From contig JAGMZX010000003.1 in NCBI GenBank assembly GCA_018005585.1, positions 1 through 38,272 of the forward strand: a DNA stretch of 38,272 nucleotides, given 5' to 3'. The stretch comes from Candidatus Hydrogenedentota bacterium. GTDB lineage: Bacteria; Hydrogenedentota; Hydrogenedentia; Hydrogenedentales; JAGMZX01. Both the position numbers and the translations under genes were made by a program. The notes beneath the pieces were generated by a model. It was not told where the DNA came from, searched no databases, and saw nothing but the letters and a program-made list of their open reading frames with translations. Each line of letters opens with the position of its first letter. The first letter of the stretch is position 1. Positions 951 to 34,521 of the stretch are shown piece by piece.

Positions 951-1097
951 AACAGGTCAGCCGACGACTCTCAGCCGACAAGTCCGTTTTTGTTGTTGTG
1001 CCCTGCTTCTCGCCGTTGACCCGGTCTTGAAAACCGCGTCATGCGCCATTCATCATGTCTGGCAGAAACCTTCGTGCCGCGGGCGGGGAGAGAAGAA

Positions 1098-3581: not shown

Positions 3582-3696
3582 CGCCGTGCGATAAAGTCGG
3601 CGCGCCCTGCACTGTCAGAGGACACCGGAGCAAGACGGTCATTATCACTCGCGCGGACTGCGCGAATCAGCGGCGTCGCCCGCGGGGGTACGGTCT

Positions 3697-4713
3697 ATGC
3701 AAAAAAGAAGCGCCATGAGACTGGTGCTGGAAGGCCGGGTTCCTCCGTATGTCCCGTGGTCGTTCAAGTTCACACAGGAAGCCGCCACACTGCTCGCCGC
3801 GCATCTCGGCGCCGCCGACCTCGAAACGGCAGTGGACAATCACATCCTCCGCCTCGGCAGCGATGTGGGCTTCTTTGAGCGAACGGGTCCCCACCGGTAC
3901 CGGGATGTCTTCGGTGTGGAATGGGACCGGTCCGTCGACAAGGACATCGGCATTGTCGTGGGTCAGGCGCTGCCCCGGCCCACGCTGGAAGGCTACCTCT
4001 TCCCCGACCCGCTTGACTGGCGGTTCTTCGCGGACATGGAGCGCCGAATTGCGGCGGCGCCGGATCGCTTCCGTGTTTTCGAAATCGGTTTTTCGCTTTT
4101 TGAGCGGGCGTGGACCCTGCGGGGCATGGACACGCTCATGACGGATTTCCTTGAGCATCCCGGCTTCGTGCACGAGTTGCTTGGGCGCATCGCGGACTAC
4201 AACATCGCCCAGGCGCGGAAGGCGATGACGCACGAAATCGATGGCGTGTATTTCGGGGACGACTGGGGGCATCAGCGCGGCCTGATCTTGGGACCCGGCA
4301 TCTGGCGCGAGTTTATCCTGCCTCAGTTGCGGCGCATGTATGGTGTGGTGCGGGACGCCGGCAAGTATGTTTTCATGCACTCCTGCGGCGACGTCGACGA
4401 ACTCTTTGACGACCTCATCGATGCCGGTTTGAACTGTTTTAATCCGTTTCAGCCGGAAGTGATGGACGTCCACGCCCTGCTCGATCGGTACCGCGGCCGG
4501 CTGACGTTCTTCGGGGGCCTTTCCATGCAACGCACGCTTCCTTTCGGCACGGTGGAAGAAGTGCGCGCCGAATCGCGGCGGCTATTGCAGCACGGCGCCG
4601 CGGGAAGCTACGTCTTTTCGCCGTCCCACGCGGTAGAGGGCGATACCCCACTGGCGAACCTGCTGGCATTCATCGATGAAGCCAAGAGCCAGGAAGGCTG
4701 GAAGAGGCGGTGA
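3697..4713 (+). CDS. Uroporphyrinogen decarboxylase (URO-D) family protein, probably methyltransferase-type
   Basis: 338 residues, the usual length of the URO-D family. Family signs are the N-terminal [14 protein letters not shown], the central [14 protein letters not shown] and [21 protein letters not shown], and the C-terminal [17 protein letters not shown] and [20 protein letters not shown]. The HSCGD segment is where cobamide-dependent methyltransferases of the MtaA/CmuA branch carry zinc ligands. Since the neighbours are catabolic and no haem genes are nearby, a demethylase or other C1-transfer role is more likely than haem synthesis; that is an inference. No signal peptide, so cytoplasmic. 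The start ATG at 3697 follows a GGGGGTACGG stretch; an ATG six codons later is the alternative. A paralogue lies at the right end of the window. Confidence 0.8.
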
Positions 4714-4837
4714 GAGGTCAAGGGGACGAGCGCAAACACGAACAGAGGTAGAAGGACCTCGGCACGAAACAGTCTTCAAGCGCCAGGACGATGCCGGTCC
4801 GTCCGGTTATTCTCTTCTTGTGTGGCCGTGAACGGAA

Positions 4838-4862
4838 GGCAACACTTGGGCTTGGTGTTGCC
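4838..4862 (-). terminator. Hairpin downstream of the secreted SGNH protein gene
   Basis: A perfect 8-bp stem (GGCAACAC / GTGTTGCC) with a 9-nt loop lies 25 bp past the stop codon of the reverse-strand gene. A second GC-rich inverted repeat (CGCCGC / GCGGCG) sits between the stop and this hairpin. The run of T after the stem is poor, so this may be a weak intrinsic terminator or a 3'-end stabilising hairpin. It also faces the end of the forward URO-D gene, so it could act in both directions. Confidence 0.4.
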
Positions 4863-4886
4863 CGCCGCCGTGGCGGCGCGTTTCGG

Positions 4887-7499: not shown

Positions 7500-7555
7500 A
7501 CAAGAACCTCCTTGAAGGCAGATTAGGAGACAGTGTGGCCATTGCTAACGAATTC

Positions 7556-7584
7556 ACTATAACCAGGAAATCCAATGAATTCAA
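7556..7584 (-). promoter_or_regulatory. Sigma-70-like promoter for the SGNH/EF-hand gene
   Basis: On the reverse strand the sequence reads TTGAAT, a 17-bp spacer, then TATAGT. Each hexamer differs from the consensus in one or two positions and the spacing is ideal. Transcription would start near 7549, giving a leader of about 50 nt that contains the AAGGAGG ribosome-binding site. Confidence 0.6.
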
Positions 7585-7780
7585 ACCTCCCTGGGTACAA
7601 TGGGCCGGGTTCACCCCATTTTTTCTTGGCTTGGATGCACGATTTCCAGGCCGCTCGAGATCATACGGTTTTCTGCCAACGAGGGTCCCGACAAGTGCCA
7701 CGTAATGACCTGCGCCCCTTCCTTCGTGGCCTGGTGCGGGGGGGTATCCGCGCGTGGCGAAGACCCGGGCCACGGGGAAT

Positions 7781-7810
7781 TTGACACTGCGATACGCGGC
7801 AGGGCATACT
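7781..7810 (+). promoter_or_regulatory. Sigma-70-like promoter for the DEAD-box helicase, with long leader
   Basis: A perfect TTGACA, an 18-bp spacer and CATACT (4 of 6 matches). If used, transcription starts near 7817 and the helicase mRNA has a leader of roughly 175 nt. Long leaders are typical of cold-induced or self-regulated RNA helicase genes, but I did not find a clear cold-box or riboswitch fold by eye. Confidence 0.5.
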
Positions 7811-7992
7811 ATAGGAAATGTAATCGCCGCTGATGAGTAGCAGGCCGACCTCAGTCTTGTCGTTCTTTCTACGCAGAATCACCTCTCAGTACGGATACTC
7901 ACCTGTGTGTTGTTTCCCACTTGGCCGGTGTGCAGCGGGCAACCCGCGATCCTGACCGAATACCGGCGGAACGTTGTAGGGAAACTATTCTC

Positions 7993-9204
7993 ATGTCGTT
8001 TGAAACTCTGTCTATTGATCCGCGCTGTCTCAAGACGCTGAAGTCACAGCGCATCACCGAACCGACGCCAATTCAGGCGCGGGCCATCCCGCTCGCGCTG
8101 GAAGGGCGCGACCTGGCGGCCGTCGCGCAGACGGGCACGGGCAAGACGCTGGCGTTCGCGCTGCCGTCGCTGGCACGTCTTGCGCAGGCGCCCGCGGGCC
8201 GCAACAGCATGCTCGTGCTCACGCCGACGCGCGAACTGGCCGTGCAGATCCGGACGGTTATCGAGCCGCTGGCGCATTCGATTGGGCTGCGTACGGCGTG
8301 CATTTACGGCGGCGTCGGTTTCGGAGCGCAGGCAGATGCGCTGCGCCGCGGCTGTAACATCATCGTGGCGACACCGGGCCGCCTACTCGACCATATGTCG
8401 CGTGGGGGCGTGAACTTCCGCGATCTGCGCATCCTCGTCCTCGACGAGGCGGACCGCATGCTGGACATGGGGTTTCTGCCGGACATCCGGCGCATCCTCG
8501 CGAAATTGCCCGCCGAGCGGCAGACGCTGATGTTCTCAGCGACCTTCCCTCGCGAGATCGCGCGGCTGGCCGCGGACATGCAGCGCAACGCGGCACGCAT
8601 CGAGGTCGGAGCCATCGCGAAACCCGTCGAGACCGTGCGGCAGCACATATACACGGTGGCGCAAATGGGCAAGACGCCTCTGCTCTCGACGTTGCTGCGC
8701 GGTAATGGCGTGCGCTCCGCTCTGGTGTTTCTGCGCACGAAGCACCGCACGGACCGCGTGGCGCGTTCGCTGCACAAGGAGGGATTCAAGGTGCAGTCGA
8801 TCCACGGAAACCGGTCTCAGAGTCAGCGCCAGCAGGCGCTGGACGGGTTCCGCAAGGGCCGCTACAACGTGCTCGTGGCAACGGACATCGCCGCGCGCGG
8901 GCTGGACATCAAGGGCGTCAGCCACGTCATCAATTACGATGTGCCAAACAACCCCGAAGAGTATATCCACCGTATCGGCCGCACGGCGCGCGCGAGCGAG
9001 ACGGGCGACGCTATCACGTTCGTGAGCCCTGACGAGTGTGTTGCGCTTGGCAACATCGAGAGCGCGCTGGGCGTGAACCTGCCGCGGGTGCAGTGGGAAG
9101 GCGCCGTGCCGGTGGTGTCGGTCTTTCAGAAGGCGAAGGCGCTGCAAGCTCCCGGCCGGAATGGCCAGGCGCAGCGCAAGCGGCGCTTCTTCCGGCGGCG
9201 GTAG
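7993..9204 (+). CDS. rhlE: DEAD-box ATP-dependent RNA helicase, RhlE-like
   Basis: 403 residues starting at the ATG at 7993; the frame is open upstream but the family begins at MSFETLSID. It carries the full motif set: Q motif ITEPTPIQ, Walker A AQTGTGKT (Lys51), PTRELAVQI, TPGRLLDHMSRG, DEAD-type box (LDEADRMLDMGF, Asp151), SAT (FSATFPREI), then in the second RecA domain ALVFLRTKHRTDRV, ATDIAARGLDI and HRIGRTARA. The short basic tail (RKRRFFRRR) is typical of the RhlE branch and would help RNA binding. Role: cytoplasmic unwinding of RNA duplexes in ribosome assembly or mRNA turnover. It is monocistronic, between a divergent and a convergent neighbour. The family is certain; the RhlE subfamily is likely. 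Confidence 0.93.
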   Translation: MSFETLSIDPRCLKTLKSQRITEPTPIQARAIPLALEGRDLAAVAQTGTGKTLAFALPSLARLAQAPAGRNSMLVLTPTRELAVQIRTVIEPLAHSIGLRTACIYGGVGFGAQADALRRGCNIIVATPGRLLDHMSRGGVNFRDLRILVLDEADRMLDMGFLPDIRRILAKLPAERQTLMFSATFPREIARLAADMQRNAARIEVGAIAKPVETVRQHIYTVAQMGKTPLLSTLLRGNGVRSALVFLRTKHRTDRVARSLHKEGFKVQSIHGNRSQSQRQQALDGFRKGRYNVLVATDIAARGLDIKGVSHVINYDVPNNPEEYIHRIGRTARASETGDAITFVSPDECVALGNIESALGVNLPRVQWEGAVPVVSVFQKAKALQAPGRNGQAQRKRRFFRRR

Positions 9205-9238
9205 TCATTCAGAATTGCGCGGACGATACCCCCGTGCC

Positions 9239-9257
9239 GCGCGGCTCTGCGCGCTTT
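9239..9257 (+). terminator. Possible short intrinsic terminator after the helicase gene
   Basis: A 5-bp GC stem (GCGCG / CGCGC) with a 6-nt loop followed by TTT lies about 35 bp after the helicase stop, in the convergent gap to the prepilin gene. The stem is short and the T-run minimal, so this is a weak call. Confidence 0.25.
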
Positions 9258-9261
9258 CTCA

Positions 9262-10267
9262 TCAGTCGCTTTTCAGGATCTGCATCCCGATCGCGAGCGC
9301 GCGCACGACCGGCGCCTCCTGACTGGGATATCGCATGAAATCGGCGTGACCGTCCAGGTACAGGACGTTTGCGCCGCCTGGGACATGATTGAAATCAGCC
9401 GCCTCGGCCGAAACGACGTCGAACATCACAAAGAGGCTGCTCTGCGCCTTTGCCGCGGCCGCCGGGTTATTGATGTCCGAGATCATAAACCGCTCGATGC
9501 CTTCGCGAAGGCGGTACACCGTGTCGCCGCCGCCATTTCCGTGCCCTGCGAGGCGCGGAGTTGTGGTATCGCGGTCGAGGACTGGCATCGGGCCGAGAAC
9601 GAAATCCGTGATGTCCGGGTTGGTGATGTGGTTTATCATTTCGGGCGACGTGTAGATGGCAAGCCACTGCTCGACGAATTGCACCGGGATCTGTTCATGT
9701 TCCGGAATGACGAGATCCGGCTGAATCGCCAGAAACAGAGGCCGGTACGCCTCGACGTCGACCATGCAGAAATCGTACGCGCCGCAGCGGTCATAGGCGA
9801 AGCCGAGATAGACGTATGAGTCATCAGCGCGCCACCAGCGATTGTGCAAACCCTGGGGCCAGCGATCGATCAGAATGGACTGTCCCAGGCGTTCCGGCGC
9901 AAACAGAGCGTCGTCGCCGTTCGCGGCGTCGTAATACATCTGCTTGAGCGTGTGACTGGCGCTCGAGGGACACACGTAAAGCGCGGGGTCATTGATGTAT
10001 TCCGGAAAGACGCCGGGGATATAGGGAAGCGTAATGAGACCCGCCGACCCGGGCCGGTAATGTTGTATCGGCGGCCACAGTTCTCCGGGCGCCTCATTCG
10101 CGTACATCTTCAGAGCGAGCCCCCACTCCTTGAGATTGTTCGCGCAACTGGCGCGGCGCGCGGCCTCGCGCGCGGGCCAGCGCCGGCAACAGAATCGCCG
10201 CCAGGATGCCGATGATCGCAATGACCACCAGCAGTTCAATCAGCGTGAAGCCTTGCTTCCCCCGCAT
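9262..10267 (-). pseudogene. Type IV prepilin-like protein (DUF1559/H-X9-DG type), frameshifted after the N-terminal helix
   Basis: The gene starts at the ATG at 10267, preceded by GCGAGGA, and encodes [16 protein letters not shown], a perfect type III (prepilin) processing site followed by the conserved hydrophobic helix. The frame then breaks: the N-terminal part runs LLPALARA, while the natural continuation [17 protein letters not shown] is in another frame. The switch lies in a CG-dinucleotide run near 10165-10175; restoring two bases (one CG unit) re-joins the frames exactly. The remaining sequence is intact and ends with HVPGGANVLYLDGHADF, close to the H-X9-DG tail of this family. About 335 residues if repaired. 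It is either a recent mutation, a slippage site or a sequencing error. It lies 72 bp downstream of the FG-GAP gene, probably in one operon. Confidence 0.8.
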
Positions 10268-22184: not shown

Positions 22185-22562
22185 ATGGAAAGAACTGACA
22201 TTGCCCGCATGCTGAACAGTCCCAAGCTCCAGAGCGACACCCGCGAGAAACTGCGCGCTCTCGAAGCCCACCTGACCGCGGCGGCGGATACGGAAGTGGC
22301 CACCCTCATGGAGACCATGCAGTTGCCGCGCCTGTGTGTCTGGCTCAGTGAGATGGACGAGGCCTTGTTGCCCGATGCGTTGCGCCGTCCCATGTCGCAG
22401 CCGGAAAACGTGAAGCGCGCGCCCGGATTGGGAACTCTGGTCTCAGTCCGGCCGACCTGGGCGGACCTCAAGCAGATTCTCGCATGCCGGAGTGTGCAGG
22501 CGGTTGAACTGTATGAGACGCTGTGGAAGTTTGAAAGCGATTCCGAGGATAAAGGGAGTTGA
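22185..22562 (+). CDS. Small protein of unknown function between the DUF4384 and subtilisin genes
   Basis: 125 residues, ATG with GGGAG upstream. I do not recognise a family. It is predicted mostly helical, with an N-terminal amphipathic helix pair (RMLNSPKLQSDTREKLRALEAHL) of which only the charge pattern is informative, and a central VRPTWADLKQIL. No signal peptide. It starts 4 bp after the preceding stop and ends 2 bp before the subtilisin start, so it is translated in concert with both. Its size and place suggest an adaptor or inhibitor of the neighbouring protease, but this is a guess from position only. Confidence 0.6.
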   Translation: MERTDIARMLNSPKLQSDTREKLRALEAHLTAAADTEVATLMETMQLPRLCVWLSEMDEALLPDALRRPMSQPENVKRAPGLGTLVSVRPTWADLKQILACRSVQAVELYETLWKFESDSEDKGS

Positions 22563-22564
22563 GC

Positions 22565-25027
22565 ATGGGAGTCAGGATAGACCCCGCGTTGCGCGAGCGT
22601 TTTGCGGCGTTGATGGAAGCGGCCTCCCGGCCGAGCACATCCGCCTTGACGGCGCTTGCGCGGGGGACACGGAGCGTCCGCGGTATCGATGCTGCCAGAG
22701 TGGCGCGCTCGTGCCGCGCGCCGGTCGTCTCGGAAACTGATGTGAAGCGCGTCTACGCCCTTGCGCGCGAGGACGTGCCGCGCCCTCTGTGGCCTCTGAT
22801 TATTGTCGCCTGCAAGAGCGCGGTGCATGTCGAAGGAGCCATCGACGCCCTGACAAGACAAGGATTCGAAATCGACGAGCGCCCGCAAATGCGGCAATAC
22901 CTGAAACCGCTCGGCATGCTGGCGCTCGTTATGCCGCCGAACGCCGCGCTGTTGGACCAAGCCGCCCGCGTCGAAGCGGTCGAAATACTGGCCGACGGCG
23001 ATGAGCGCCTGGCCGTGCCGGCCCCGTTGTCCCAGGAGGAGCAGACGCCAGCGGGGCCGTTGCAGGCGCTGGTCATGACCATGCTCGGAGGCGAAGACCT
23101 CCCGGACGACCTGAACAAGGTGCGGGACGGCGCGGCGCGTGTGGCCATACTCGATACGGGCATTGATGGCGAACACCCGGCGTTTACCGGGCGGATCGAG
23201 AAGCATGTCGACCTCTCGGGGGGTGAATTGGGTCCGGTGGACCCGGTGGGCCACGGCACGCATGTCGGGGGAATCGTGGCGGGACTGCCGCCGGGCGGCC
23301 TGTACGCCCTGACCGGCGTCGCACCCTTTGCGCATCTCGTCGATATTCAGGTGTGGGGCCACGAAGGCATCTTGACCGGTACCTTGCTGCAGGGCATCGG
23401 CTGTGCCATGCAGGAGCGCGTGGATGTTCTGAATGTCAGCTTGGGCGCGGCCCTGCGCACGGATGGAACGTCGATCATTACACGGGCTATACAGAAGGCC
23501 GCCGAAACCGGCCTGATCTGTTGTGTGTCGGCGGGGAATGAGGGCGCTTCGGGGGGAAACACGCTGACCATCCCGGCGGACGCGCGGGACGCAATAGCCG
23601 TGGCGGCAATCGGCCTTGACGGCAAATGGGCCCGGTTCAGCAGCCAGGGGCCATCGGACGACCCCGCCGTGACGGGCCCGAAACCGACGGTCGCGACCCC
23701 CGGTGTGGGTATTGTCGCGCCCCGCTCGCAGGCAAGCGAACAGGCACCCTTTGACCGCGGCGGGCGCTACGTGAGCATGAGCGGAACCTCGATGGCTTCG
23801 CCCATGGCCGCCGGCGTGTGCGCCCTTGGCGTAGGCTATTTGCGCGGAGTATTCGGGGAGGATGCGGATACCGGCGCGATCCTTGCAGCACTGACCGCCA
23901 CGGCGGGCGACCCGCATAAGGAAGGACCAAACAAGGTCGGCCGGGGCATTCCGCGGGTTCCGGCATTTCTGCGCGTGTTGCGCCATGCCCACCAGGCCCG
24001 GTGCACAATCGCGGCGGCTCCCCCACTCCGTCAGACCACCGAGCGGGTTGCGAAGCAACTTGGGGTTGACGGCTTTGCGCAGGCGGACGGCGTAGGGGTA
24101 GCGTCGGGCGCCTCACCCGCATCCGGTGGAGTCGTGGACATGAAGATAATTGGACAGGATGAGGGTCGCGCACCGGACGCGGAAGAAGCGCGTGCGCTCT
24201 TCAAGCGATATCGTGACATCGAGGCAGCGTACCTGGAGGGCGTGCGCGCCAATGTCGCTCGCTTTGCCGGGCAACTTGCGCAAGAACTTGCGGGCAGGGA
24301 TAGCGTACGTGCGGGAGGTTCGTTTGCGCTGAACGAACGGCAGCGTCTAATGGACGACGCTTTGTTGCTGCGCCTGGATGAAGGGGCGCGCATGTGTCTG
24401 CCGGAGAATGGAGAATGGTGGTGGGTGTTCAACCACAGAGGGCTTCTGCGCACGCAGCCGGCTCTGGTCGTTGGGGTTAAGAGCCTCGCCGGCGCTCAGG
24501 CGCTGACGCGGGCGCGTCCCTCGGGCCGGATTTCCGTGGGCGAATACATCGCCCGGTTCTATATGCAGGTGCCGGCGCGGCTTGCACGATTGCAGTTGGA
24601 GGGCCGCACCCCGCCGCCAATAGCACTGGCCGTTCTGGCGCCTTCGCCGTGGCGGGGCGAGGAGCACGATGCCGCCTTGGCAGGGCCCGCCGCGGTCGTA
24701 GTGGTGACGCACAAGGCGCCGGGCGGGGATGAGAAGAGTCCATGGCAGACCGCGCCGGGCACCTTCAATTGGAATGCGTGGCTCGCCCTGACTCCCGCGA
24801 CGCTGGAGACACGGCTGGAACATTACCGCGACCGTTTGAAACAGCACCCGGCGTTGCTGGTCGCGGGCGACAGCGAATATGTGTGGAAGCTCGCGCAGGA
24901 GTTTGGACTGCCGAAAACGGTGACGCGCGAACTGATCGCGGCGGCGGGGCGTCTGGACGGCCTGTTTGAAATCACGCGGGCCGCGGATGGCGAGGAACGG
25001 GTACGCCGCACGCGTTGGGACACGTAA
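22565..25027 (+). CDS. Cytosolic subtilisin-like serine protease (S8) with a 350-residue C-terminal extension
   Basis: 820 residues. The ATG at 22565 has GGAG 6 nt upstream; a TTG two codons earlier overlaps the previous stop. The catalytic residues are all present: Asp197 (VAILDTGIDGEHP), His230 (GHGTHVGGIV), Asn325 (CVSAGNEG) and Ser409 (SGTSMASPMAAG). Residues about 75-150 resemble an I9-type propeptide (ALTRQGFEIDERPQ, ALVMPPNAALL). There is no signal peptide, so it should be made and kept in the cytoplasm, unlike most subtilisins. After the protease domain (to about 470) comes a long unrecognised region with a helical part (FKRYRDIEAAYLEGVRANVA) and a mixed alpha/beta part (GEWWWVFNHRGLL). 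It could process the GTPase, GAP1-like, caspase or ESCRT-like partners, or kill the cell. Confidence 0.88.
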   Translation: MGVRIDPALRERFAALMEAASRPSTSALTALARGTRSVRGIDAARVARSCRAPVVSETDVKRVYALAREDVPRPLWPLIIVACKSAVHVEGAIDALTRQGFEIDERPQMRQYLKPLGMLALVMPPNAALLDQAARVEAVEILADGDERLAVPAPLSQEEQTPAGPLQALVMTMLGGEDLPDDLNKVRDGAARVAILDTGIDGEHPAFTGRIEKHVDLSGGELGPVDPVGHGTHVGGIVAGLPPGGLYALTGVAPFAHLVDIQVWGHEGILTGTLLQGIGCAMQERVDVLNVSLGAALRTDGTSIITRAIQKAAETGLICCVSAGNEGASGGNTLTIPADARDAIAVAAIGLDGKWARFSSQGPSDDPAVTGPKPTVATPGVGIVAPRSQASEQAPFDRGGRYVSMSGTSMASPMAAGVCALGVGYLRGVFGEDADTGAILAALTATAGDPHKEGPNKVGRGIPRVPAFLRVLRHAHQARCTIAAAPPLRQTTERVAKQLGVDGFAQADGVGVASGASPASGGVVDMKIIGQDEGRAPDAEEARALFKRYRDIEAAYLEGVRANVARFAGQLAQELAGRDSVRAGGSFALNERQRLMDDALLLRLDEGARMCLPENGEWWWVFNHRGLLRTQPALVVGVKSLAGAQALTRARPSGRISVGEYIARFYMQVPARLARLQLEGRTPPPIALAVLAPSPWRGEEHDAALAGPAAVVVVTHKAPGGDEKSPWQTAPGTFNWNAWLALTPATLETRLEHYRDRLKQHPALLVAGDSEYVWKLAQEFGLPKTVTRELIAAAGRLDGLFEITRAADGEERVRRTRWDT

Positions 25028-25063: not shown

Positions 25064-26062
25064 GTGACGACGAATAGTGACAGAGAAGAAGAACCGCAAC
25101 GCAAAACACGGGAGCGGCGCATCATGTTCGCCATCGGGAGACTCATTGGATACATAGGCGAAAAGGCTGGGAGACTGGGCCTGCTGGTGATTCTGTGCAT
25201 GGTTGCAGTGCAGGGATACATGCTCATCCGGCCTCGCTCCGCGCAGTTGGATTCCGCGCGCGGCAAGGCGGCCGACCGGCTCACAACCCAAGTCGCAGAT
25301 GTGCTGGCCACGCTACCCGAAATGGACTGGACAGCGCGCTACGTGCGCGTGGCCCGGCTGGCGGGGGACTACGAGGACCACGTGCGCATGCGTTTTGAGC
25401 AGATCCTGCCGGTCCGCATGAATTGCCGCATCGTCACGGACACCCTGCTGGACGAACTGCGAGACCAGATCGCGGCGAAAGCGGCGCGACTGGGCGTTTT
25501 GTCCGAGCCCCGTGCCGACTCATGGAAATTGCCGTCCGTGCGGACCTTGGAGGAAGCGCTCGCGTTCGGCGAAAGCTATGACTGCGATTTTGTGGTGTAC
25601 GGGGAAGTGCACGATTTCCGTTCCCTGGGCGACCGCGTCTTTCTAAAGATGGATGTCGCGGTGGCGGACGTGACGCAGGGCGCGTGCGTGTTCCAGCAGG
25701 CCGTCGAGGCCGGCGACCCGGCGATCATGGCGGACGTGGGCATGACCGCCCTGCAGGGGGAAAATCAGCGGGCCGGTTTGCGGCTGGGTCTTTGGCTTGC
25801 GTTCACGCTGCTGTTGCCGGTGTGCACATGGAAACTCTGGCGTGTGCAACTCGAGCGCGAATCGCGCGCGGTGAACGGCCTGTGCCTGGCCGTGTTGACT
25901 ATGCTGCCAGGCACGCTGGCATGGGGACTGATGGGATTCAGCGCAGCGACCGTGCTCGAGTGGCTCACGTTGGCGCTGGCGTTCGCGCTGGCCATGTCCT
26001 GGAATTTATATATACTGAGTGTGATAGAACGACGGCGCGTGGAGGAACGTTTCGGGGCGTAA
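25064..26062 (+). CDS. Four-helix inner-membrane protein with a probable periplasmic LpoB/CsgG-like domain
   Basis: 332 residues, GTG start. A basic N-terminus precedes one transmembrane helix (about 36-57), a soluble domain (about 60-235), then three transmembrane helices (about 241-262, 270-290, 293-320) and a short basic tail. By the positive-inside rule the soluble domain is periplasmic. It has a mixed alpha/beta pattern with ILPVRMNCRIVTDTLLDELR, a helix, CDFVVYGEVHDF and VFLKMDVAVADVTQGACVF. This resembles the folds of LpoB, CsgG and FlgO, where a sensor reads VxGxV and ends with a TG-containing strand, but I cannot confirm the family. A role as envelope sensor or membrane platform for the ESCRT-like proteins, whose genes follow directly, is plausible. 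Confidence 0.65.
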   Translation: MTTNSDREEEPQRKTRERRIMFAIGRLIGYIGEKAGRLGLLVILCMVAVQGYMLIRPRSAQLDSARGKAADRLTTQVADVLATLPEMDWTARYVRVARLAGDYEDHVRMRFEQILPVRMNCRIVTDTLLDELRDQIAAKAARLGVLSEPRADSWKLPSVRTLEEALAFGESYDCDFVVYGEVHDFRSLGDRVFLKMDVAVADVTQGACVFQQAVEAGDPAIMADVGMTALQGENQRAGLRLGLWLAFTLLLPVCTWKLWRVQLERESRAVNGLCLAVLTMLPGTLAWGLMGFSAATVLEWLTLALAFALAMSWNLYILSVIERRRVEERFGA

Positions 26063-26116: not shown

Positions 26117-26785
26117 ATGAGTTTCTTCGAGCAATTCAAAGGAATGATGCAACGCACCGTCACGGGCATGCGCGTGCAGGACACGCGCAGGCAACTCTTG
26201 GAAGCGTTGGACCGGTCGGACAACTGGACCACCCTCGAACGGGAGTTCGTCAGGCTGCGCGAACTCAGCCGCGAGCGCCAGAGCGATTTGATCCACCGCA
26301 TGGAACCGCTCGAGAAGAAGGCGAAGCACCTTCTGGAAGAGGCCAAGCAGACGCCTCTCAGGCAGAAGCGCGAGGCCCTGTTGAATATGGCCAACAGTTA
26401 CGCGGAGGAACTCGAGGCACTCGGGAAACCCTCCAGGATTTATCTCAATAACACGACCATGCTTACCAGGCTTATCGCGCAGATCCAAGCCGCGCGCGCC
26501 ATGGATGAACAGGGCATTGACCCGGACGTGGTCGACGGCCTGAATGCCCAATTGGAGGAGGTGGCGGAACGCTATGGCGAAGTAGGCGAAGCCGTGAGCG
26601 ACCTGGAGAAAGCCGCACCTCGTTCGGAAGAGACGGGCATGACGGTGGCCGATGTCGAGGCCCGCTTGCAGGGACTCTATGAAGCGCCGGGCGAGACCGG
26701 GGCCGCCGCGGGTGAAACGGTGGAAGACAGGCACGGTCTGGATGAACTGGAGCGGCGTTTGTACGGGCAAAGGGACGCTGAATAA
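26117..26785 (+). CDS. ESCRT-III-like helical protein A
   Basis: 222 residues, ATG after GGAGGGAG. Nearly the whole protein is helical and highly charged. An amphipathic N-terminal stretch (MSFFEQFKGMMQRTVTGM) could touch membranes. A long helical hairpin follows (about 30-110), then shorter helices, and an acidic, Gly/Ala-rich flexible linker (about 185-207). This is the layout of Snf7-type ESCRT-III proteins: basic helical core, acidic regulatory tail and C-terminal peptide. It ends in DELERRLYGQRDAE (209-222), which fits the MIM1 peptide of CHMP1/2-like proteins (L-x-x-R-L near the C-terminus). A second candidate MIM1, ADVEARLQGLY, lies at about 178-188. PspA/Vipp1-type proteins lack such tails. 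Membrane remodelling is inferred from the neighbours, a paralogue and a Vps4-like ATPase. Confidence 0.65.
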   Translation: MSFFEQFKGMMQRTVTGMRVQDTRRQLLEALDRSDNWTTLEREFVRLRELSRERQSDLIHRMEPLEKKAKHLLEEAKQTPLRQKREALLNMANSYAEELEALGKPSRIYLNNTTMLTRLIAQIQAARAMDEQGIDPDVVDGLNAQLEEVAERYGEVGEAVSDLEKAAPRSEETGMTVADVEARLQGLYEAPGETGAAAGETVEDRHGLDELERRLYGQRDAE

Positions 26786-26805
26786 ACAGCAGAGGAGCGC
26801 ACGCG

Positions 26806-27444
26806 ATGTCATTGTTTGACGACCTTTTCAAGTCGCCCGCGCGGCGGAAAGCGGAACAAGACCAGAAACGGCGCGCAGCCCTGCGCACGGGCAAGACCGC
26901 GTTGCGGCGCGAGGCGCGCGCTATTGAAAAACAGAGGCTCAAGCTCGAGGAGACCCGCCGCGAGGCCGTGAATCTGCAGCGCCAGGGGCAGGGCAGCCTG
27001 GTGAAACAAAAGGTGCGGCAGCTTACTTCGGTCCAGAATCAGGTGCTCGCTCGCAGCCTCGCCCACTCGAACATGGAGTTTGCGCTGGAACAGGCTTCCA
27101 CGAAGACGAACTACGAGGAGTTCCTCCGCGCCATGCGCGTCTACGCCAAGATCGAGGAACTGGCCGAAAACACAACGGACCCCGAAGAAGTGCGGCAACG
27201 CATCGAGGAACTCGCGGAAGCCAATGCCGACATCATGGAGCCATGGCTGGAAACCAGCGCCGCCGCGGGTCCGCAAATGGCGCGCGACCTCGAACTTACG
27301 CCGGAAGAACAGCAGCTTTACGACAGTATCGTGGCCGATGCCGTAGGCGATATCGAGTCCGAAGTGCATGCGCAGGACTCGGCCGAAATCAGCATGGACA
27401 AGGAACTCGAGCGCAAGATGGATGAGGCCCTCGGGAAGGAGTAG
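26806..27444 (+). CDS. ESCRT-III-like helical protein B (Vps2/CHMP2-like layout)
   Basis: 212 residues, ATG after GAGGAG. The N-terminus MSLFDDLF with a following basic stretch (KSPARRKAEQDQKRR) recalls Vps2/CHMP2 proteins, which begin with a short hydrophobic anchor and a basic helix. A long helix with regular charges (LRREARAIEKQRLKLEETRR) leads to a short GQG turn and a returning helix (VKQKVRQLTSVQNQVLARSL), the helical hairpin of Snf7. Helices at about 100-145 are followed by an acidic tail. The C-terminus is DKELERKMDEALGKE (198-212), a MIM1-like peptide; its ELER(R/K)(L/M) core lies exactly as far from the C-terminus as in protein A. It ends 5 bp before the Vps4-like gene. The similarity is in pattern and architecture; an HMM comparison would be needed to be certain. 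Confidence 0.7.
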   Translation: MSLFDDLFKSPARRKAEQDQKRRAALRTGKTALRREARAIEKQRLKLEETRREAVNLQRQGQGSLVKQKVRQLTSVQNQVLARSLAHSNMEFALEQASTKTNYEEFLRAMRVYAKIEELAENTTDPEEVRQRIEELAEANADIMEPWLETSAAAGPQMARDLELTPEEQQLYDSIVADAVGDIESEVHAQDSAEISMDKELERKMDEALGKE

Positions 27445-27449
27445 CTCCG

Positions 27450-28592
27450 ATGAACTACGATCGGGAACGGCGCCTGGCCGAGCAGAAGGCGAAAGGGGCC
27501 CTCGAGGACAAGGACCTGCGCATGGCCGCGTACTACCTGTTCAAGGCCGCCAGGCTCACGCTGCAGCTTGCCGGGCGCACCGAGGGGCGCATCCGCGACA
27601 GCCTGAAACGGCTCGCCAAGAAATACGAAGAACGCGGCGACAGACTGCTCCTGAAGGTCAAACAGGACGAGAGCCGGCCCAAGCGCCGCGTGCCCGGCGG
27701 CGAGGACGAGGAAGAGAAACGCTGGGCCATCGAACAGCGGCCGACCACACGCCTGGACGATGTCGCGGGCATGGACGATGTCAAGCAACTGCTGCGCACA
27801 AAGGTAATCGAAGCACAGCAGTATAGCGGCTTGTATGAACAGTATCGGCTCGAGCACGGGGGCGGCGTGCTGTTGTACGGCCCTCCGGGGACGGGCAAGA
27901 CCTACTTCGCGGAAGCCGTCGCCGGCGAGCTCGAAGTGCCGTTCTTTCCCGTCAAGCTCGAAAAGGTGCTCAGCAAATGGTTCGGCGAGACCGAGCAACT
28001 GCTGGCCCAGCTTTTTGAAGCCGCTCGGCAACATCCCATGTCGGTCATCTTCTTCGACGAACTTGAGGCTATCATGCCACGCCGCGGCTCGACGCATTCC
28101 TCCGTCATGGACCGCGTCGTGCCGCAGCTGCTGCAACTCACAAACGGGCTGGAACCATCAAAACATGCCGTAATCCTGCTCGCCGCGACAAACAAGCCCT
28201 GGCTGCTCGATTCCGCGGCCACGCGTACCGGACGCTTCGGCACGATGATCTACGTCGGGCCTCCGGATGCGGAAGCGCGACGGTTCCTCTTCAACCGGCA
28301 GACCCGCGGCGTGCCCACCGACGGCGTAGACGTCGAACTCCTGGTTCAGCGCACCGACGGGTATTCCGGCGCCGACATCGCCCATCCCCGCGAGGGGCTG
28401 TGCGCCGAAGCGCGCCTGCATGCGTTCATGCGCACGGTGCAGAAGATCCGCGATTCCGGCCAGGATGACCTGCCGCCGGAACCGGTTATGATGGAAGATT
28501 TCGAGGTTGCCTTCGGCAAGGTGCGGCCTTCTATTGATCCGGCGGAACTGAAGCGGTTTGAGGAGTTCCGCGCCGCGGCAGGCCGGAGATAG
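27450..28592 (+). CDS. Vps4-like AAA ATPase with N-terminal MIT-like domain
   Basis: 380 residues. Residues about 5-70 form three helices like a MIT domain (KGALEDKDLRMAAYYLFKAA, then RIRDSLKRLAKKYEERGDRL). After a charged linker comes a single AAA module opened by RLDDVAGMDDVKQLL, the meiotic-clade entry motif. It has Walker A GPPGTGKT (Lys150), pore loop KWFGE (176-180), Walker B IFFDELEA (Asp203, Glu204), sensor 1 AATNKP (Asn248), the second region of homology with TRTGRF, and sensor 2 TDGYSGADI. The C-terminal helix MEDFEVAFGKVRPSI matches the Vps4/katanin/spastin end. The Vps4 beta domain is absent: only about ten residues replace it. Expected role: ATP-driven unfolding and recycling of the two ESCRT-III-like proteins, docked through their C-terminal peptides. 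The AAA family is certain; the Vps4-like role is strongly suggested by context. Confidence 0.85.
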   Translation: MNYDRERRLAEQKAKGALEDKDLRMAAYYLFKAARLTLQLAGRTEGRIRDSLKRLAKKYEERGDRLLLKVKQDESRPKRRVPGGEDEEEKRWAIEQRPTTRLDDVAGMDDVKQLLRTKVIEAQQYSGLYEQYRLEHGGGVLLYGPPGTGKTYFAEAVAGELEVPFFPVKLEKVLSKWFGETEQLLAQLFEAARQHPMSVIFFDELEAIMPRRGSTHSSVMDRVVPQLLQLTNGLEPSKHAVILLAATNKPWLLDSAATRTGRFGTMIYVGPPDAEARRFLFNRQTRGVPTDGVDVELLVQRTDGYSGADIAHPREGLCAEARLHAFMRTVQKIRDSGQDDLPPEPVMMEDFEVAFGKVRPSIDPAELKRFEEFRAAAGRR

Positions 28593-28852: not shown

Positions 28853-31063
28853 ATGAAACGACGCGCAGTTCTCATCGGCGTGGACAACTACGCGGAGGAT
28901 TCCGGCGTAGGCCGCCTGAACGCGGCGGTTAAGGACGCCAAACGGATTCGCCATTTCCTGCATCTGGTGCGCGGCCACGCGGAATTTGAAATGGCGGAGC
29001 CCTACGGCTTGGTTTGCGACCCCACCAGACAGGAAGCACTCCGCGCCATCGACGCGGCCAGGGACGGCCTGAGCGCGGGCGACTTGCTCTTCGTCTACCT
29101 TGCCGGACACGGGGCCACGGATTCCGTCACGCGTCAGATGCTGTTCCTGTGCCGCGACGCACACGGGCGCAGGCTGGCACAGCGGCTGCGCTCCCGCAAC
29201 GGAGGCGAAGACGCCGCCCGGCACCTTCCCGGCGTAATCAGCCTCGCGGACCTCGAAGGCAGCATCGGCAGCGGCCCTTTCAATTGCGTCCTCATTTGCG
29301 ATACGTGCCGAGCTGAAATCGAAGACCAGTGGCAATCCCGTTCCCCCGGCATCGAAATGGTCGAGAACGCCGAAACCGGTCAGGCGCCCCGGGTCTTCTT
29401 GCCCGCGCGCCCCGGGAATGTATCGGGAACCTTCGTGCGCCTCTTTTCCTGCCGCGAACGACAGTATGCCTACGAGAACTGGAAGGACGGCGGCGGCCTG
29501 TATACCTTCTCGCTCTGCATGGCCATGAACGATCGCTGGCGCACCGACCGCTACGTTGCCTTCGATACCGCCCTTTCGCAGAGCGTGACGCGTTACATGC
29601 AGGCGATCAGCAAGGGTATGTCGCGTCAATCGCCGGACAAACACGTGACCCCGGACGCTGCGGAATTGGTCCTCTGCGACCGGCGGCATGAGATACGGGT
29701 TCGGCAGACAGGGAGCATGGAAACGGCGGTTCTCGACGCCGAGGCAGACCAGGCATGGACAGAACCCGAAGTGAAGGTGTCGATTGGACGCTTCGAGTTC
29801 CCGACGCTGCCGAAGGAAGTGCCGGCCGCCACGCGTGACATTCCCGAGCGCATCCGTCAACTCGAACAGCAGGAATACGGCATAGAGGAAGTGGTCGAAC
29901 AGCTTGAGAACGAAACGCATAAGGCGCTGGTCCCCGCGCTGGAACACATCCAGGACGCCAGGGAGTACTGCGAAGAAATGCGTGAGATGGCCGTCTTGAA
30001 CCGGCCTGTCGGATGGGACGAGCGCACGTGTACCTCTTATGAGACCGGGGAAGCCCTGGACCACGTAGCCGATCCCGTGGAACTGCTGCAGCGAATCCCT
30101 CCGGCTGAACGGGAAGCGGACGTGGCCGACTATTTCACGTGGGTCATCAGGGCGCATCAGGCCAGGAGCGTCCACGAGGAACTGAACCGGCAGTACGAGT
30201 CCGAATTGACACGCGAGAAGCGCAGACTCCAGGAACAGTTGAACAGCGTGCGCACTGCCCGCCGCGCCGCGCAGGAAGAAGACCTCGAATGCGTGGTCCG
30301 TGAGTTTCTGGAAAACGCCGGGCAGGTGGACCAATTCCCTCTGCCCCAATGGAACGAGCAGTTCCGCCTCCTCCGGGAACGCCGCTACGACTGGAGCTAT
30401 GAGGAGTGTCTGGACCGTGCTCTCTACGTCTTCCATAGACAGAAATACGCGCGGTTGCATGCCTCCTTCTCCGCCCCGGATGAGCGCTTGCCTTTCCTCG
30501 AGACTTGCGCCAGGCACGGTGTCGTCGAGGCACAGAAGGAACTGGCTGGTGAACTGGAATGGCGCGTGCGCGAAGCCGAAGCCTTTCACTGGATGGAGCA
30601 GGCGGCGGAAACCGGCGACGCGGAAGCTCTCAATGTCCTCGGCATCTGGCACGAACAGGGCAAGGGTGTCGCGCAAAACCCTATGGCCGCGGTGCAATGT
30701 TATCAACGGGCAGCGGACAAGGAATACCCGCAGGCCCAGTACCGCCTATATCAGATACTGCGCTGGGGTCATTTCAGCCAGCCGGCCAATCCCGTGGAAG
30801 CGCGGCGTCTGCTTGAGGCCGCGGCCGCGAAAGGGCACGTTCCCGCGATGCGCGAATTGGCGGCGTGTCTGCGCCGCGAAGGGCAGTACGGCCCCGCCGT
30901 CACGATCTTGCGCCGGCTGCGCCAGTCGGCCAAAGCCGAAGGCCGCATGGCCCTGGTTCCGTGGAGTATGGAACTGCGCCTGCGCCTGCTGATGATAGGA
31001 CAAGCCTTGAATGGCCGCCTTTCGCGTGCCATGCCGCGCAGGCAGCCGCCGTCCGGAATGTAG
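28853..31063 (+). CDS. Caspase-like peptidase (C14) with coiled-coil region and Sel1 repeats
   Basis: 736 residues from the ATG at 28853 (GGAGG upstream); the frame extends 16 codons left without reason. The N-terminal domain (about 1-280) opens with RAVLIGVDNYAED and carries the caspase dyad, His86 in YLAGHGATD and Cys152 in LICDTCRAE (the usual D-x-C). A long helical and partly coiled-coil region follows (about 335-500, e.g. LTREKRRLQEQLNSVRTARR). Residues about 545-690 hold Sel1/TPR-like repeats (ALNVLGIWHEQGKGVAQN, PMAAVQCYQRAADKEY). No signal peptide or membrane helix, so cytoplasmic. Caspase-like proteases with repeat domains act in bacterial signalling and abortive defence; the Sel1 part would bind a partner, perhaps the GTPase or an ESCRT-like protein. 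It may be made from an internal promoter. Confidence 0.88.
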   Translation: MKRRAVLIGVDNYAEDSGVGRLNAAVKDAKRIRHFLHLVRGHAEFEMAEPYGLVCDPTRQEALRAIDAARDGLSAGDLLFVYLAGHGATDSVTRQMLFLCRDAHGRRLAQRLRSRNGGEDAARHLPGVISLADLEGSIGSGPFNCVLICDTCRAEIEDQWQSRSPGIEMVENAETGQAPRVFLPARPGNVSGTFVRLFSCRERQYAYENWKDGGGLYTFSLCMAMNDRWRTDRYVAFDTALSQSVTRYMQAISKGMSRQSPDKHVTPDAAELVLCDRRHEIRVRQTGSMETAVLDAEADQAWTEPEVKVSIGRFEFPTLPKEVPAATRDIPERIRQLEQQEYGIEEVVEQLENETHKALVPALEHIQDAREYCEEMREMAVLNRPVGWDERTCTSYETGEALDHVADPVELLQRIPPAEREADVADYFTWVIRAHQARSVHEELNRQYESELTREKRRLQEQLNSVRTARRAAQEEDLECVVREFLENAGQVDQFPLPQWNEQFRLLRERRYDWSYEECLDRALYVFHRQKYARLHASFSAPDERLPFLETCARHGVVEAQKELAGELEWRVREAEAFHWMEQAAETGDAEALNVLGIWHEQGKGVAQNPMAAVQCYQRAADKEYPQAQYRLYQILRWGHFSQPANPVEARRLLEAAAAKGHVPAMRELAACLRREGQYGPAVTILRRLRQSAKAEGRMALVPWSMELRLRLLMIGQALNGRLSRAMPRRQPPSGM

Positions 31064-31104
31064 TCTCTGGTTGACACGTCGTGCTTTATGGGAGTTGCAG
31101 CGAT

Positions 31105-34100
31105 ATGAACGTAAAACAATTCTACGACGAGCTACGCGAGCAGGGGCTGAGCGCCGAACTGCGCGATTTCGAACGTGCGGTCGCGCAGGCCATGAACCTG
31201 AAAGTCCGCCCCGATGATTCGCTGGAGGTGCCCGGAAATGTCCAGCAGGAAGTCCGCGGCGTCTTCGGCATGCCGACAGCCAACGTGAACTACTCTCAAG
31301 AAGACGATGAGGAGCCGCGAACGTTTCAGGCTGCCCGCGCATCCGCAACACCCGAATGGCGCCGTTCTCCGTCGGGGCCGCAACTGCCCGGACCCGAGGA
31401 CGAGACAGATCGGCGGAGACTCGAGATAAAGAGCTGGGAACAGATACTCAAGGAGACGCGGCGGCGGCGGAATGAGTCCTATATCGGCGTGCTGGGCATG
31501 CGCAATTCCGGCAAATCGGCGTATTTCTACGTTGTCGGCAACGAACTCATCTCCGAGGTGCGCATCGGCGAATGGGAATGCGGACTCACAAGCACCGAAT
31601 ACGGCATGTTCCTGAATGAGGTTCACAAGCGCATGCCGCGATGGGAGAAAACGCGGCTGGACGAGAGCGTGGATTTCCCGCTCTTCGCGCTTTCGAGGGG
31701 CTCGTCTCTCTTGTCATTATTGCCACGCGGCGACCGCATCCTGCGCAAATCGGTGTATTTCGATTCCTTCGACTGTTCCGGCGAAATGTGGCGTATCGCT
31801 TTTTCGCCGGGCGCCGAGGTGGACATTCACGTTCAACGCGAGGCCGACGTCGTGAACAAGGTCCGGGAAAAGGCCGCGCTGTGCTCCGGCTTTGTCGTGC
31901 TCGTGGACGCTGAACTGGCTCGTCAAGGCAAGGAACAGGAACAGTTGAAACATGACGAGCAACTCGTCTGGAACTACGTGTTCAGCCGCCTGGCTTGGCT
32001 GGATAGCAATGGAGACCGGGCCGGCACGCATATCGGTCGCCCCGTGGCGGTCGCCTTGAACAAGGCCGACCTCTTCGCGGACGCGTTCCAGGTGCGCCTG
32101 GATTCCACCGGAAACCGGCATTCCGGGGAAGATTCGCCCCGTTTGCGGTCCCTCCGGGATATTCTCTTCGACCTGACGGGCACGAACCCGGACGCACAAG
32201 CCGAAGCGAGAGAAACGCTGGCAAATGCTCAGATTCGCCGGCAGTTGTCCGAGCAGTCGGAAGTCTTCATCCAGCGCCATTTCCCCCAGCTCTACGACCA
32301 GATCGACAAGCGCTGCGACAACAAACACTACTCTCTCATGAGTTGCTGGGGTCGCGATGTCGAGAAGGTCTACAACGGCGAAGGCATGCACATCGGGACC
32401 AACATCCTGTCTCCGCACCGCTCTTTCGGAATAGAGGAGCCGCTGCTCTGGATTGTGAGAGCGATACAAAAGCGGCGTCATACCGAGGACATAGGCAAAA
32501 GGACGAGGCGGTTCGTCGCCGCGGTGGTGGCCTTGGCAGTCCTTTTCGCCGGAGCGCTGCTTACCACGTCGTGGGCTGCGGGCAAGGCCGCGGAAAATGA
32601 CCGCCCGGAAATCGGGGAGGTGTTGTTGTCCGCTTCCGAATACAACCCGATTTCCCGCGGCCTCAATTGGTTCAACGGCCAGCCGGACCATGCCCTCTAT
32701 CTGAACGCGCAGAGCACGATCGCGGAGGCCTATTTCGCCCGCCACCGGGGCCATGGCGAAAGCGGTGACTGGGCCTCCGCCGAGCGCGACGTCCGCGAGG
32801 CGCTGCGCGTCATAGGTGAAGTCCCGGACAGGCAGGAGCACGTGGAACGCTACGGGTCCGCGCTGGTGGCGTGCCTCCTGGGCCTGGCCCGGCAGGCGGC
32901 GGAAGGCGGAGACGCGGAAACGCGGTTTGCGCGCTTAAGCACGGCCGTACAGGACGCGCGCGCTTGCGCTGTTTCGCCCGATGAAGCCCTGGACGAAATG
33001 CGCGGCGCGTTGGTCGAGCGCTACACGGAAGGGTTGCTCGACCGGGAAGCGGATAGTCCGCACGCGGCCTTTTTCACGGGCCGTGAACGCCTGCGCAACG
33101 TGGACGCCGGGACCTCCCAGGAACGCGCCTTCGAGACGGCCTGCGCGAGCGCGTTTTGCGGCAAGTTCGACGAACTGTGCATCGCCGGTGATTGCTCCAA
33201 CGCCAGCTATCTTACCTCGCACATGGACACGTCGCCGTTCGGCACGGCGTTGACCGCGGAACGGCGCCAAGCCATGTACGAGGCGCTCGTGCGAGCGTTT
33301 GAGAAACAGGGCGAGTCGGCGCGGACTTCGGGCCTGCTGGCGGACAGCGAGAAAGCTTTTGACCAAGGTGTTCGTGCCGCGCGCGAATACGACGTGGACC
33401 CAGCATCGGCGTTGCGGGGCCTCGCGGAGTCGTACATGCTCGAGTTGCGCCTGTTGATTGAGACGCAGGGTGTGCCGGCCGCCGACGAGCGCATGAACAC
33501 GGCAAAGGCGCATCTCGCCGAATTGCAGGCCTCTGACGATGTGCAGTCCCATTTCCTGGGCCAGTGGTCGTGCGCGAAGGCGTGCGGCTTGCTCCGCCAG
33601 CAGGCCTGCACGGAGGCCGTCGAGAGCTTCCGCATGGCGGCCACCCTGCTCCCACTCGACGTGGTGGCCGCTGACGCCGTGCCCGGCCTGATTGCTGCCG
33701 CGCAGGCGGTCACGGATGTCAAGCAGTACGATACGCGCGACTTCCTGCTGCGCTCCGCGACCGAATTCGCGGGACCGGCCGACGCCGAGCGCATTGCGGA
33801 CCTGCGCGTCTCGGGCCTGATTGAGCAAAGCGAGTATCAACTGCGCGCCGGCGACCCCAAAAAGGCCACCGGCTATCTTAACACCGCCCTCGAACTTCGG
33901 TCCGGCGACGCGCGTGCGCAGGCGTTGCTGGAGCATGCGTCCAGGGCCGGCGGCATGGTTTTCATTGCCGCGGGCGGCACCGGTTTCTACCTGGACCGCA
34001 CCGAAGTCAGCAATGAGGCGTATCAACGGTTTCTCAAGCATGCCCCGGAAGGCGTGCTGAACCCCGTCGGCTGTGCCGCGGGTGACTACGAAATCTTCAG

Positions 34101-34521
34101 CAGGGAAACGACGGCGCCTGTCGTGTTCGTCTCGTGCGCGGAAGCGCAAGCCTACGCCCGCTACATGGGCAAGCGGCTACCCACCGCGGCAGAGTGGGAG
34201 GCGGCGTGGGGAACCAGGACTTACCCTTGGGGCAATACCTTCCCCGAGAGCGGAGTCAACACACGCGAAAGCGTTTTGGGTGCCGCCGCGCCGCCCGATT
34301 CCAGTCAATGCCGTGCCGACGTCTCGAGTCAGGGCGTCCGCAACCTCGCGGGCAACGTGGCGGAATGGACCTCCACCGTGTCCGGCGGCGGATATGTGGT
34401 CAAGGGCGGGACATGGCTCGACGGCGAGCAATTCGCCCGGAGGGACCACCGTATGGAGAAAGACGCGAACGCGCGCGAGCGCAGTATCGGCTTCCGTTGT
34501 GCGCTGGATGCCGTTCCTTGA
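31105..34521 (+). CDS. Transmembrane GTPase fused to TPR-like region and inactive SUMF1/FGE-like domain
   Basis: 1138 residues from the ATG at 31105 (GGGAG upstream). After a short N-terminal domain and an acidic linker comes a GTPase domain (about 120-440): P-loop GMRNSGKS (Lys137), a switch-II-like FDSFDCSGEMW, and the guanine motif NKAD (about 319-322). The pattern resembles double-GTPase families of predicted conflict systems. A basic stretch (KRTRR) precedes one transmembrane helix (about 468-490), so the GTPase should be cytosolic and the rest periplasmic. A long helical TPR-like region (about 530-945) leads to a SUMF1/FGE-type domain (949-1135: DRTEVSNEAYQRFL, GKRLPTAAEWEAAWG, NLAGNVAEW, GFRCAL). 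The two catalytic cysteines expected after VKGGTW are missing, so it should bind rather than oxidise. It is the likely envelope sensor. Confidence 0.85.
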   Translation: MNVKQFYDELREQGLSAELRDFERAVAQAMNLKVRPDDSLEVPGNVQQEVRGVFGMPTANVNYSQEDDEEPRTFQAARASATPEWRRSPSGPQLPGPEDETDRRRLEIKSWEQILKETRRRRNESYIGVLGMRNSGKSAYFYVVGNELISEVRIGEWECGLTSTEYGMFLNEVHKRMPRWEKTRLDESVDFPLFALSRGSSLLSLLPRGDRILRKSVYFDSFDCSGEMWRIAFSPGAEVDIHVQREADVVNKVREKAALCSGFVVLVDAELARQGKEQEQLKHDEQLVWNYVFSRLAWLDSNGDRAGTHIGRPVAVALNKADLFADAFQVRLDSTGNRHSGEDSPRLRSLRDILFDLTGTNPDAQAEARETLANAQIRRQLSEQSEVFIQRHFPQLYDQIDKRCDNKHYSLMSCWGRDVEKVYNGEGMHIGTNILSPHRSFGIEEPLLWIVRAIQKRRHTEDIGKRTRRFVAAVVALAVLFAGALLTTSWAAGKAAENDRPEIGEVLLSASEYNPISRGLNWFNGQPDHALYLNAQSTIAEAYFARHRGHGESGDWASAERDVREALRVIGEVPDRQEHVERYGSALVACLLGLARQAAEGGDAETRFARLSTAVQDARACAVSPDEALDEMRGALVERYTEGLLDREADSPHAAFFTGRERLRNVDAGTSQERAFETACASAFCGKFDELCIAGDCSNASYLTSHMDTSPFGTALTAERRQAMYEALVRAFEKQGESARTSGLLADSEKAFDQGVRAAREYDVDPASALRGLAESYMLELRLLIETQGVPAADERMNTAKAHLAELQASDDVQSHFLGQWSCAKACGLLRQQACTEAVESFRMAATLLPLDVVAADAVPGLIAAAQAVTDVKQYDTRDFLLRSATEFAGPADAERIADLRVSGLIEQSEYQLRAGDPKKATGYLNTALELRSGDARAQALLEHASRAGGMVFIAAGGTGFYLDRTEVSNEAYQRFLKHAPEGVLNPVGCAAGDYEIFSRETTAPVVFVSCAEAQAYARYMGKRLPTAAEWEAAWGTRTYPWGNTFPESGVNTRESVLGAAAPPDSSQCRADVSSQGVRNLAGNVAEWTSTVSGGGYVVKGGTWLDGEQFARRDHRMEKDANARERSIGFRCALDAVP

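Follow-up and report, generated by a model that had tools for sequence, protein, structure and literature searches.

Locus Organization

The window, i.e., the whole stretch of 38,272 nucleotides that was analyzed, is one contig from a 6.08 Mb assembly of a Candidatus Hydrogenedentota bacterium. It carries three consecutive genes, here referred to as ORF1, ORF2, and the ATPase gene (Table 1), with intergenic gaps of 20 bp (ORF1–ORF2) and 5 bp (ORF2–ATPase) in the ORF map. Coordinates, strand, and spacing agree with an earlier interpretation made from the DNA letters (hereafter, the sequence-only reading), which had described two charged helical proteins followed by an AAA ATPase. The GC3 values of the three genes (0.75–0.79) equal those of neighboring genes. 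Predicted models of ORF1 and ORF2 are all-helical, and both proteins combine a basic N-terminal half with an acidic C-terminal half (+10/−19 in ORF2, +3/−16 in ORF1). This charge pattern is kept in 23 of 23 ORF2 relatives and 15 of 17 ORF1 relatives, so that models and charge counts bear out the description of basic N-termini and acidic tails.

Table 1. Features of the ESCRT-like locus, with positions in the window.
Feature	Position	Strand	Details
S8 subtilase, associated protease	22559..25027	+	Pfam 2.3e-40
Membrane-anchored protein, fourth gene of the conserved set	25064..26062	+	Same family in 13/18 loci
ORF1	26117..26785	+	222 aa/codons, ATG start
VADVEARLQGLYE, MIM1-like, within the acidic ORF1 tail	26645..26683	+	By inspection; absent from some ORF1 relatives
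C-terminal MIM1-like stretch GLDELERRLYGQRDAE of ORF1	26735..26782	+	By inspection of the sequence
ORF2	26806..27444	+	212 aa/codons, ATG start
C-terminal amphipathic motif ELERKMDEALGKE of ORF2, MIM-like	27403..27441	+	Pattern conserved in tails
Vps4-like AAA ATPase	27450..28592	+	380 aa/codons, ATG start
Probable MIT domain, three helices	27450..27674	+	Residues 1–75; hhalign and PDB profile
Vps4_C oligomerization domain and C-terminal helix	28401..28580	+	Residues 318–377; Pfam
Caspase (C14) with Sel1 repeats, associated protease	28853..31063	+	Pfam 1.6e-13

ORF2 Is an ESCRT-III Homolog

By sequence profile and by fold, ORF2 is a homolog of ESCRT-III proteins. On its own it matches the Pfam Snf7 family (PF03357) with an E-value of 0.0097 and 16 bits, which lies below the cut-off of 27.3 bits. 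Each of the four Hydrogenedentota homologs gave a match (8.9e-5, 0.0097, 0.024, and 0.056), as did 21 of the 23 ORF2 relatives, and two of these exceeded the cut-off (L059 with 35.7 bits and L070 with 28.6 bits). Profiles built from the four Hydrogenedentota sequences (A1) and from 23 homologs (A4) were compared to 177,635 PDB sequences. For A1, yeast SNF7 ranked first (9e-5) and Heimdallarchaeota ESCRT-IIIB fourth, with all of the top five being ESCRT-III proteins. For A4, yeast SNF7 again ranked first (1.4e-11), Heimdallarchaeota ESCRT-IIIB reached 2.6e-7, and Shrub, Vps20/32/60-like ESCRT-III, CHMP3, CHMP2A, and Vps24 appeared further down; A4 also scored two designed/fungal TPR chains, via a short motif repeated five times.

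The AlphaFold2 model of ORF2 (pLDDT 75.8, two-sequence alignment) has predicted helices at residues 3–7, 11–59, 63–99, 103–122, and 126–139, followed by a tail, and thereby shows the α1–α2 hairpin, α3–α5, and acidic tail of ESCRT-III. In Foldseek, CdvB2 filaments occupied ranks 1 to 5 (probability 0.96–0.99), with E-values of only 0.03–0.09 and a TM-score of about 0.4. The alignments behind the models of ORF1 and ORF2 are thin, as the input consisted only of the sequences from the window and from locus L001. Taken with the profile searches, the fold matches confirm the Snf7-like identity proposed for the second protein. Its tail motif resembles MIM1, and a role in MIT binding is putative: the pattern [LIVM]xx[LIVMA][LIVM] occurs in 18 of 23 tails of the ORF2 family, whereas shuffled tails averaged 4.2, a statistic that is supportive only, since the pattern was picked after the tails had been seen.

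ORF1 Is Probably a Second, Diverged Subunit

ORF1 is probably a second, diverged ESCRT-III-type subunit. The ORF1 family (profile A5, 17 sequences) has diverged much further than that of ORF2; SNF7 came first among PDB matches (3.6e-4, colinear), with designed and natural coiled coils close behind. No significant Pfam Snf7 match was obtained for ORF1, and its relatives gave nothing consistent in Pfam. The predicted model (pLDDT 69.7, two-sequence alignment) consists of a long hairpin with an N-terminal helix (helices at residues 3–16, 21–33, 37–77, 82–132, and 137–173) plus an acidic tail. Foldseek ranks 1 to 7 all belonged to the ESCRT-III superfamily (Loki CHMP4-7, CHMP1B/IST1, and Vipp1), with weak E-values of 0.17–0.5. 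The model strongly suggests an ESCRT-III fold, and the Snf7-like identity claimed for the first protein is likely, with individually weak fold matches and marginal support from sequence. By comparison with the MIM1 consensus, VADVEARLQGLYE is a putative Vps4-binding motif. Four ORF1 relatives (L061 8311–9273, L062 6040–7011, L063 7649–8515, and L064 7069–8097) carry an extra N-terminal domain, which is cysteine-rich, probably zinc-binding, and fused to the helical part.

The ATPase Has a Vps4-Type Architecture

The ATPase combines a single AAA module with a Vps4_C domain, as is the case for Vps4 and CdvC. Pfam identified AAA (4e-37), AAA_lid_3 (above cut-off), and Vps4_C, whose 30.8 bits exceed the cut-off of 21.3; the NCBIfam CdvC model matched with 1.3e-53, under that model's cut-off. 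All motifs are intact, including Walker A GPPGTGKT (144), pore loop KWFGE (176), Walker B FFDE (201), sensor AATN (245), arginine fingers TRTGRFG (258), SGAD (306), and the Vps4-type C-terminal helix RPSIDPAELKRFEEF (359). The pore loop, SGAD motif, and C-terminal helix noticed in the sequence-only reading were found in place, and the Vps4-type C-terminus that it described is borne out by the Pfam match to Vps4_C.

These results bear on the view that ORF1 and ORF2 are unrelated charged coiled coils beside a generic Cdc48-type ATPase. Both proteins are indeed highly charged and helical, and the ORF1 profile also matches designed coiled coils. However, the best matches of ORF2 in the PDB are ESCRT-III proteins, tropomyosin-like, SMC-like, apoA-I, and PspA controls scored at noise level, and Vps4_C lies above its cut-off. 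The PDB result is independent of the control sequences (coiled coils and PspA). We regard this view, whose coiled-coil part the sequence-only reading had itself named as its possible undoing, as barely credible; it is largely refuted for ORF2, and ORF1 remains mixed with coiled coils at the sequence level.

The N-terminal helices of the ATPase probably form a MIT domain. A profile of the N-terminal 75–85 residues of 25 ATPase homologs (A6) aligned over its full length with MIT domains of VPS4/CdvC (hhalign 84.7% across 72 columns). In the PDB, its best natural match was the Sulfolobus MIT domain 2w2u (E = 0.007), ranking below two designed minibinder proteins. None of the 25 ATPases reached the Pfam MIT threshold. 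The MIT-like N-terminus described earlier is thus backed by full-length alignment, at scores below the curated Pfam thresholds, and a MIT identity is strongly suggested.

In the phylogenetic tree, the cassette ATPases, except that of the divergent locus L090, grouped with other bacterial AAA proteins (93/96). The sister of this bacterial group comprised Vps4, CdvC, katanin, and spastin (98/97), and Cdc48 branched separately. The cassette ATPases were placed outside the Vps4/CdvC clade in this tree, which was built without Asgard or haloarchaeal Vps4. Their neighbors were bacterial AAA proteins without a known ESCRT-III neighbor. IetA-like proteins, when added, remained a separate, long-branched clade. 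Among the references, which also included spastin and katanin, VPS4B differed from PDB 7l9x at a single residue, and CdvC was taken from PDB alignments. The ATPase encoded in locus L070 (1965–4982, minus strand) is 1006 aa long; it has two AAA modules and, in its C-terminal stretch, an HELGH motif resembling those of zinc proteases. Tandem AAA modules are likewise found in L068 and L069.

The Cassette Recurs in Two Bacterial Phyla

We examined 18 loci. The ATPase and ORF2 were present in 18/18 and ORF1 in 17/18, all three genes thus occurring together in 17. The three-gene string is conserved, and for this reason the objection foreseen in the sequence-only reading, namely that similar strings might never be conserved, falls away. 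Because the same order was found in independent genomes, the arrangement is not due to chance. A second, diverged cassette lies in the same genome (L026, G000:C225, 3426–5890); a gene for a papain-like protease and a caspase-like fragment precede it, and a further AAA gene follows where the contig ends. Further Hydrogenedentota cassettes were found in G040 (L025) and G050 (L001/L027), and G058 has kept the ATPase alone, at a contig edge. A search of 386 relatives with A4 gave clear matches in just three Hydrogenedentota genomes and a weak match in one further genome. ORF2 relatives were also detected in 14 of 388 sampled genomes of Verrucomicrobiota, the sample being drawn from the phylum of a Lentisphaeria assembly, and one Verrucomicrobiota order had the cassette in 9 of 137 genomes.

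Several Clostridia (L003, L004, L005, L007, and L009) possess a related ATPase with a MIT-like N-terminus and no Snf7-like gene in the genome; in L003, kinase-like and vWA-like genes adjoin the ATPase. Three weak Pfam Snf7 matches elsewhere in bacteria were opened, two of which look spurious by eye (ribosomal protein S2-like and MlaD-like). The third, in G002, is a further and more divergent ESCRT-like locus (L090, G002:C127:9000-21000, 408–10127). Its genes encode, in this order, an S8 subtilase with HTH, an ESCRT-III-like protein (197 aa), a Vps4-like ATPase, a Snf7-like protein (192 aa), an SPFH protein with zinc ribbon, a zinc-ribbon protein, and a membrane protein, i.e., two ESCRT-III-like genes flank the ATPase gene and an SPFH gene adjoins.

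The sequence-only reading had called the module complete and probably mobile. Patchy distribution is the sole basis for mobility, and no mobile-element genes were found among the genes scanned in the window. Neither the ATPase nor ORF2 had relatives on viral contigs; plasmids yielded no ORF2 relatives and ATPase matches only to general AAA proteins, and phages only FtsH-like and other AAA matches. The rarity and patchiness in Hydrogenedentota, together with the 9 of 137 genomes in the Verrucomicrobiota order, could also point to a recently acquired archaeal or eukaryotic ESCRT cassette, or to a contig contaminated with archaeal DNA. Yet numerous distinct assemblies from two phyla contain the cassette, where its neighbors are bacterial genes such as FtsH, its composition matches that of neighboring genes, and its ATPases are not nested in Vps4/CdvC. 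Recent acquisition or contamination is very unlikely in our view, with archaeal contamination disfavored by recurrence, ATPase tree, and composition.

Proteases, Kinases, and a Membrane Protein Often Accompany the Cassette

The membrane-anchored protein encoded upstream of ORF1 has hydrophobic N- and C-terminal segments and an LpoB-like middle, a weak domain assignment. A similar protein in L090 (411–1319) weakly matches LpoB (0.035). Caspase genes, found downstream of the ATPase in the window, also occur in L059 and L067, and an S8 gene lies beside the related locus L090; CHAT proteases and subtilases are found as well. A family containing a Ser/Thr kinase is present in 8 of 18 loci and a papain-type protease family in 6 of 18. 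The partner proteases vary among loci, whereas the ESCRT-III genes are constant. Downstream of the caspase gene, the window encodes a protein of 1146 aa (31081–34521). Its N-terminal part looks GTPase-like by eye, and it also has a hydrophobic segment and, at the C-terminus, an FGE-sulfatase domain. Five Verrucomicrobiota loci (L059, L068, L069, L070, and L071) share a conserved gene of ~200 aa that appears ECF sigma factor-like by eye (no Pfam match in L059), and four of them also have an anti-sigma-like gene of ~220 aa; these are possible dedicated regulators of the Verrucomicrobiota cassettes.

The recurrence of subtilase, caspase, CHAT, or papain proteases beside the module leads to another explanation, i.e., a protease-based defense of the IetAS type, in which the ATPase would be an unfoldase and the helical proteins soluble adaptors feeding the S8 protease or caspase, with no membrane polymer. 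In PADLOC, IetA models hit the ATPase (1.9e-39) and IetS hits the neighboring S8 protease (5.6e-9). The ATPase, however, falls well short of the IetA equivalog cut-off (120 of 510 bits), the IetS score is 14.7 of 900, and the IetA-like proteins form their own clade apart from the module ATPases. Furthermore, the varying proteases and constant ESCRT-III genes argue against this explanation, as does the true ESCRT-III ancestry of ORF2. We therefore rejected an IetAS identity on the sub-cut-off scores and the separate ATPase clade, and consider a mechanism of this type improbable. The G040 contig that carries the cassette also has an IetA-like AAA gene, below cut-off, some 23 kb away (C100:72732-73553).

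Proposed Mechanism and Significance

We consider it likely that the cassette is a bacterial ESCRT-III/Vps4-type module. In the mechanism we propose, ORF2, and probably also ORF1, would polymerize on the cytoplasmic face of the inner membrane. A hexameric MIT-AAA ATPase would dock via its MIT domain on the C-terminal tails of ORF2 and ORF1 and, using ATP, pull subunits out of the polymer. Owing to this ATP-driven extraction, the filament would be remodeled and the membrane bent, sealed, or cut. The membrane protein encoded alongside could serve as anchor or sensor at the envelope, and proteases and kinases may gate the response. A role in a stress or defense response is suggested by the proteases (caspase/CHAT, papain, or subtilase) and Ser/Thr kinases that recur beside the module, and we infer that membrane repair or controlled membrane remodeling is the most likely function. 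As a tentative view, to which we give somewhat less than even weight, bacteria would own a native, ancient ESCRT-III/Vps4 branch, sister to archaeal and eukaryotic Vps4 and without recent import, serving as an accessory repair or defense module under protease and kinase control.

The sequence-only reading had assumed that bacteria normally have only PspA/Vipp1 without a MIT-AAA partner. A 2023 review sees no clear Vps4 homolog in bacteria (PMC7615534), whereas a 2024 survey by Ravi et al. mentions Vps4-like AAA+ proteins in several bacterial lineages and Snf7-AAA+ cases (PMC11237479). In the passages of the survey that were consulted, no description was found of a two-subunit ESCRT-III/MIT-AAA cassette with caspase/kinase context (PMC11237479). 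Nor did our literature search, whose scope excluded preprints and most subscription papers, retrieve a paper on this cassette. Novelty is thus high, though not absolute: reviews deny bacterial Vps4, yet related cases in bacteria appear in the 2024 survey. The presence of a paired cassette in two or more bacterial phyla alters the phylogenetic range on which arguments about the origin of ESCRT are built. With two subunits and one motor, it also offers a small system for testing how Vps4 drives membrane remodeling, and it connects ESCRT with the caspase/kinase circuits of bacteria, in parallel with ESCRT repair during eukaryotic cell death.

Comparison with Known Systems

The archaeal Cdv system (CdvB/CdvB1/CdvB2 and CdvC) likewise encodes ESCRT-III subunits with a Vps4-type ATPase, whose MIT domain is probable in the bacterial cassette, and CdvB2 filaments are the closest solved folds to ORF2. 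In contrast, no CdvA was noticed here, the host is bacterial, and the ATPase falls outside the CdvC/Vps4 clade. Cdv is moreover a housekeeping division system, whereas the bacterial cassette is accessory, patchy, and coupled to proteases and kinases. With Asgard and eukaryotic ESCRT, the cassette shares two ESCRT-III-type proteins, of which ORF2 is Snf7-like and ORF1 a probable subunit, and one Vps4-like ATPase with Vps4_C; unlike there, no ESCRT-I, ESCRT-II, or ubiquitin genes were noticed in the loci read. The anti-phage system IetAS resembles the cassette in pairing an AAA ATPase with a subtilase, but its ATPases form a clade separate from the module ATPases, and it is not known to include ESCRT-III genes.

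PspA/Vipp1 belongs to the same fold superfamily, Vipp1 being among the fold matches of ORF1, and PspA has no Vps4 partner (PMC7615534). A PspA identity (PspA_IM30) of ORF2 was rejected, as A4 scored −5.4 bits (hmmsearch) and 0.3% (hhalign) against PspA. The cases of Ravi et al. comprise bacterial Vps4-like ATPases and Snf7-AAA+ neighborhoods, i.e., some bacterial Snf7 homologs with a TM segment that adjoin AAA+ ATPases (PMC11237479). In their Vps4 cases, Snf7 is reported to be displaced by a TPR-6TM protein (PMC11237479), whereas here one ESCRT-III gene and a second, probable one are paired with an ATPase that has a probable MIT domain.
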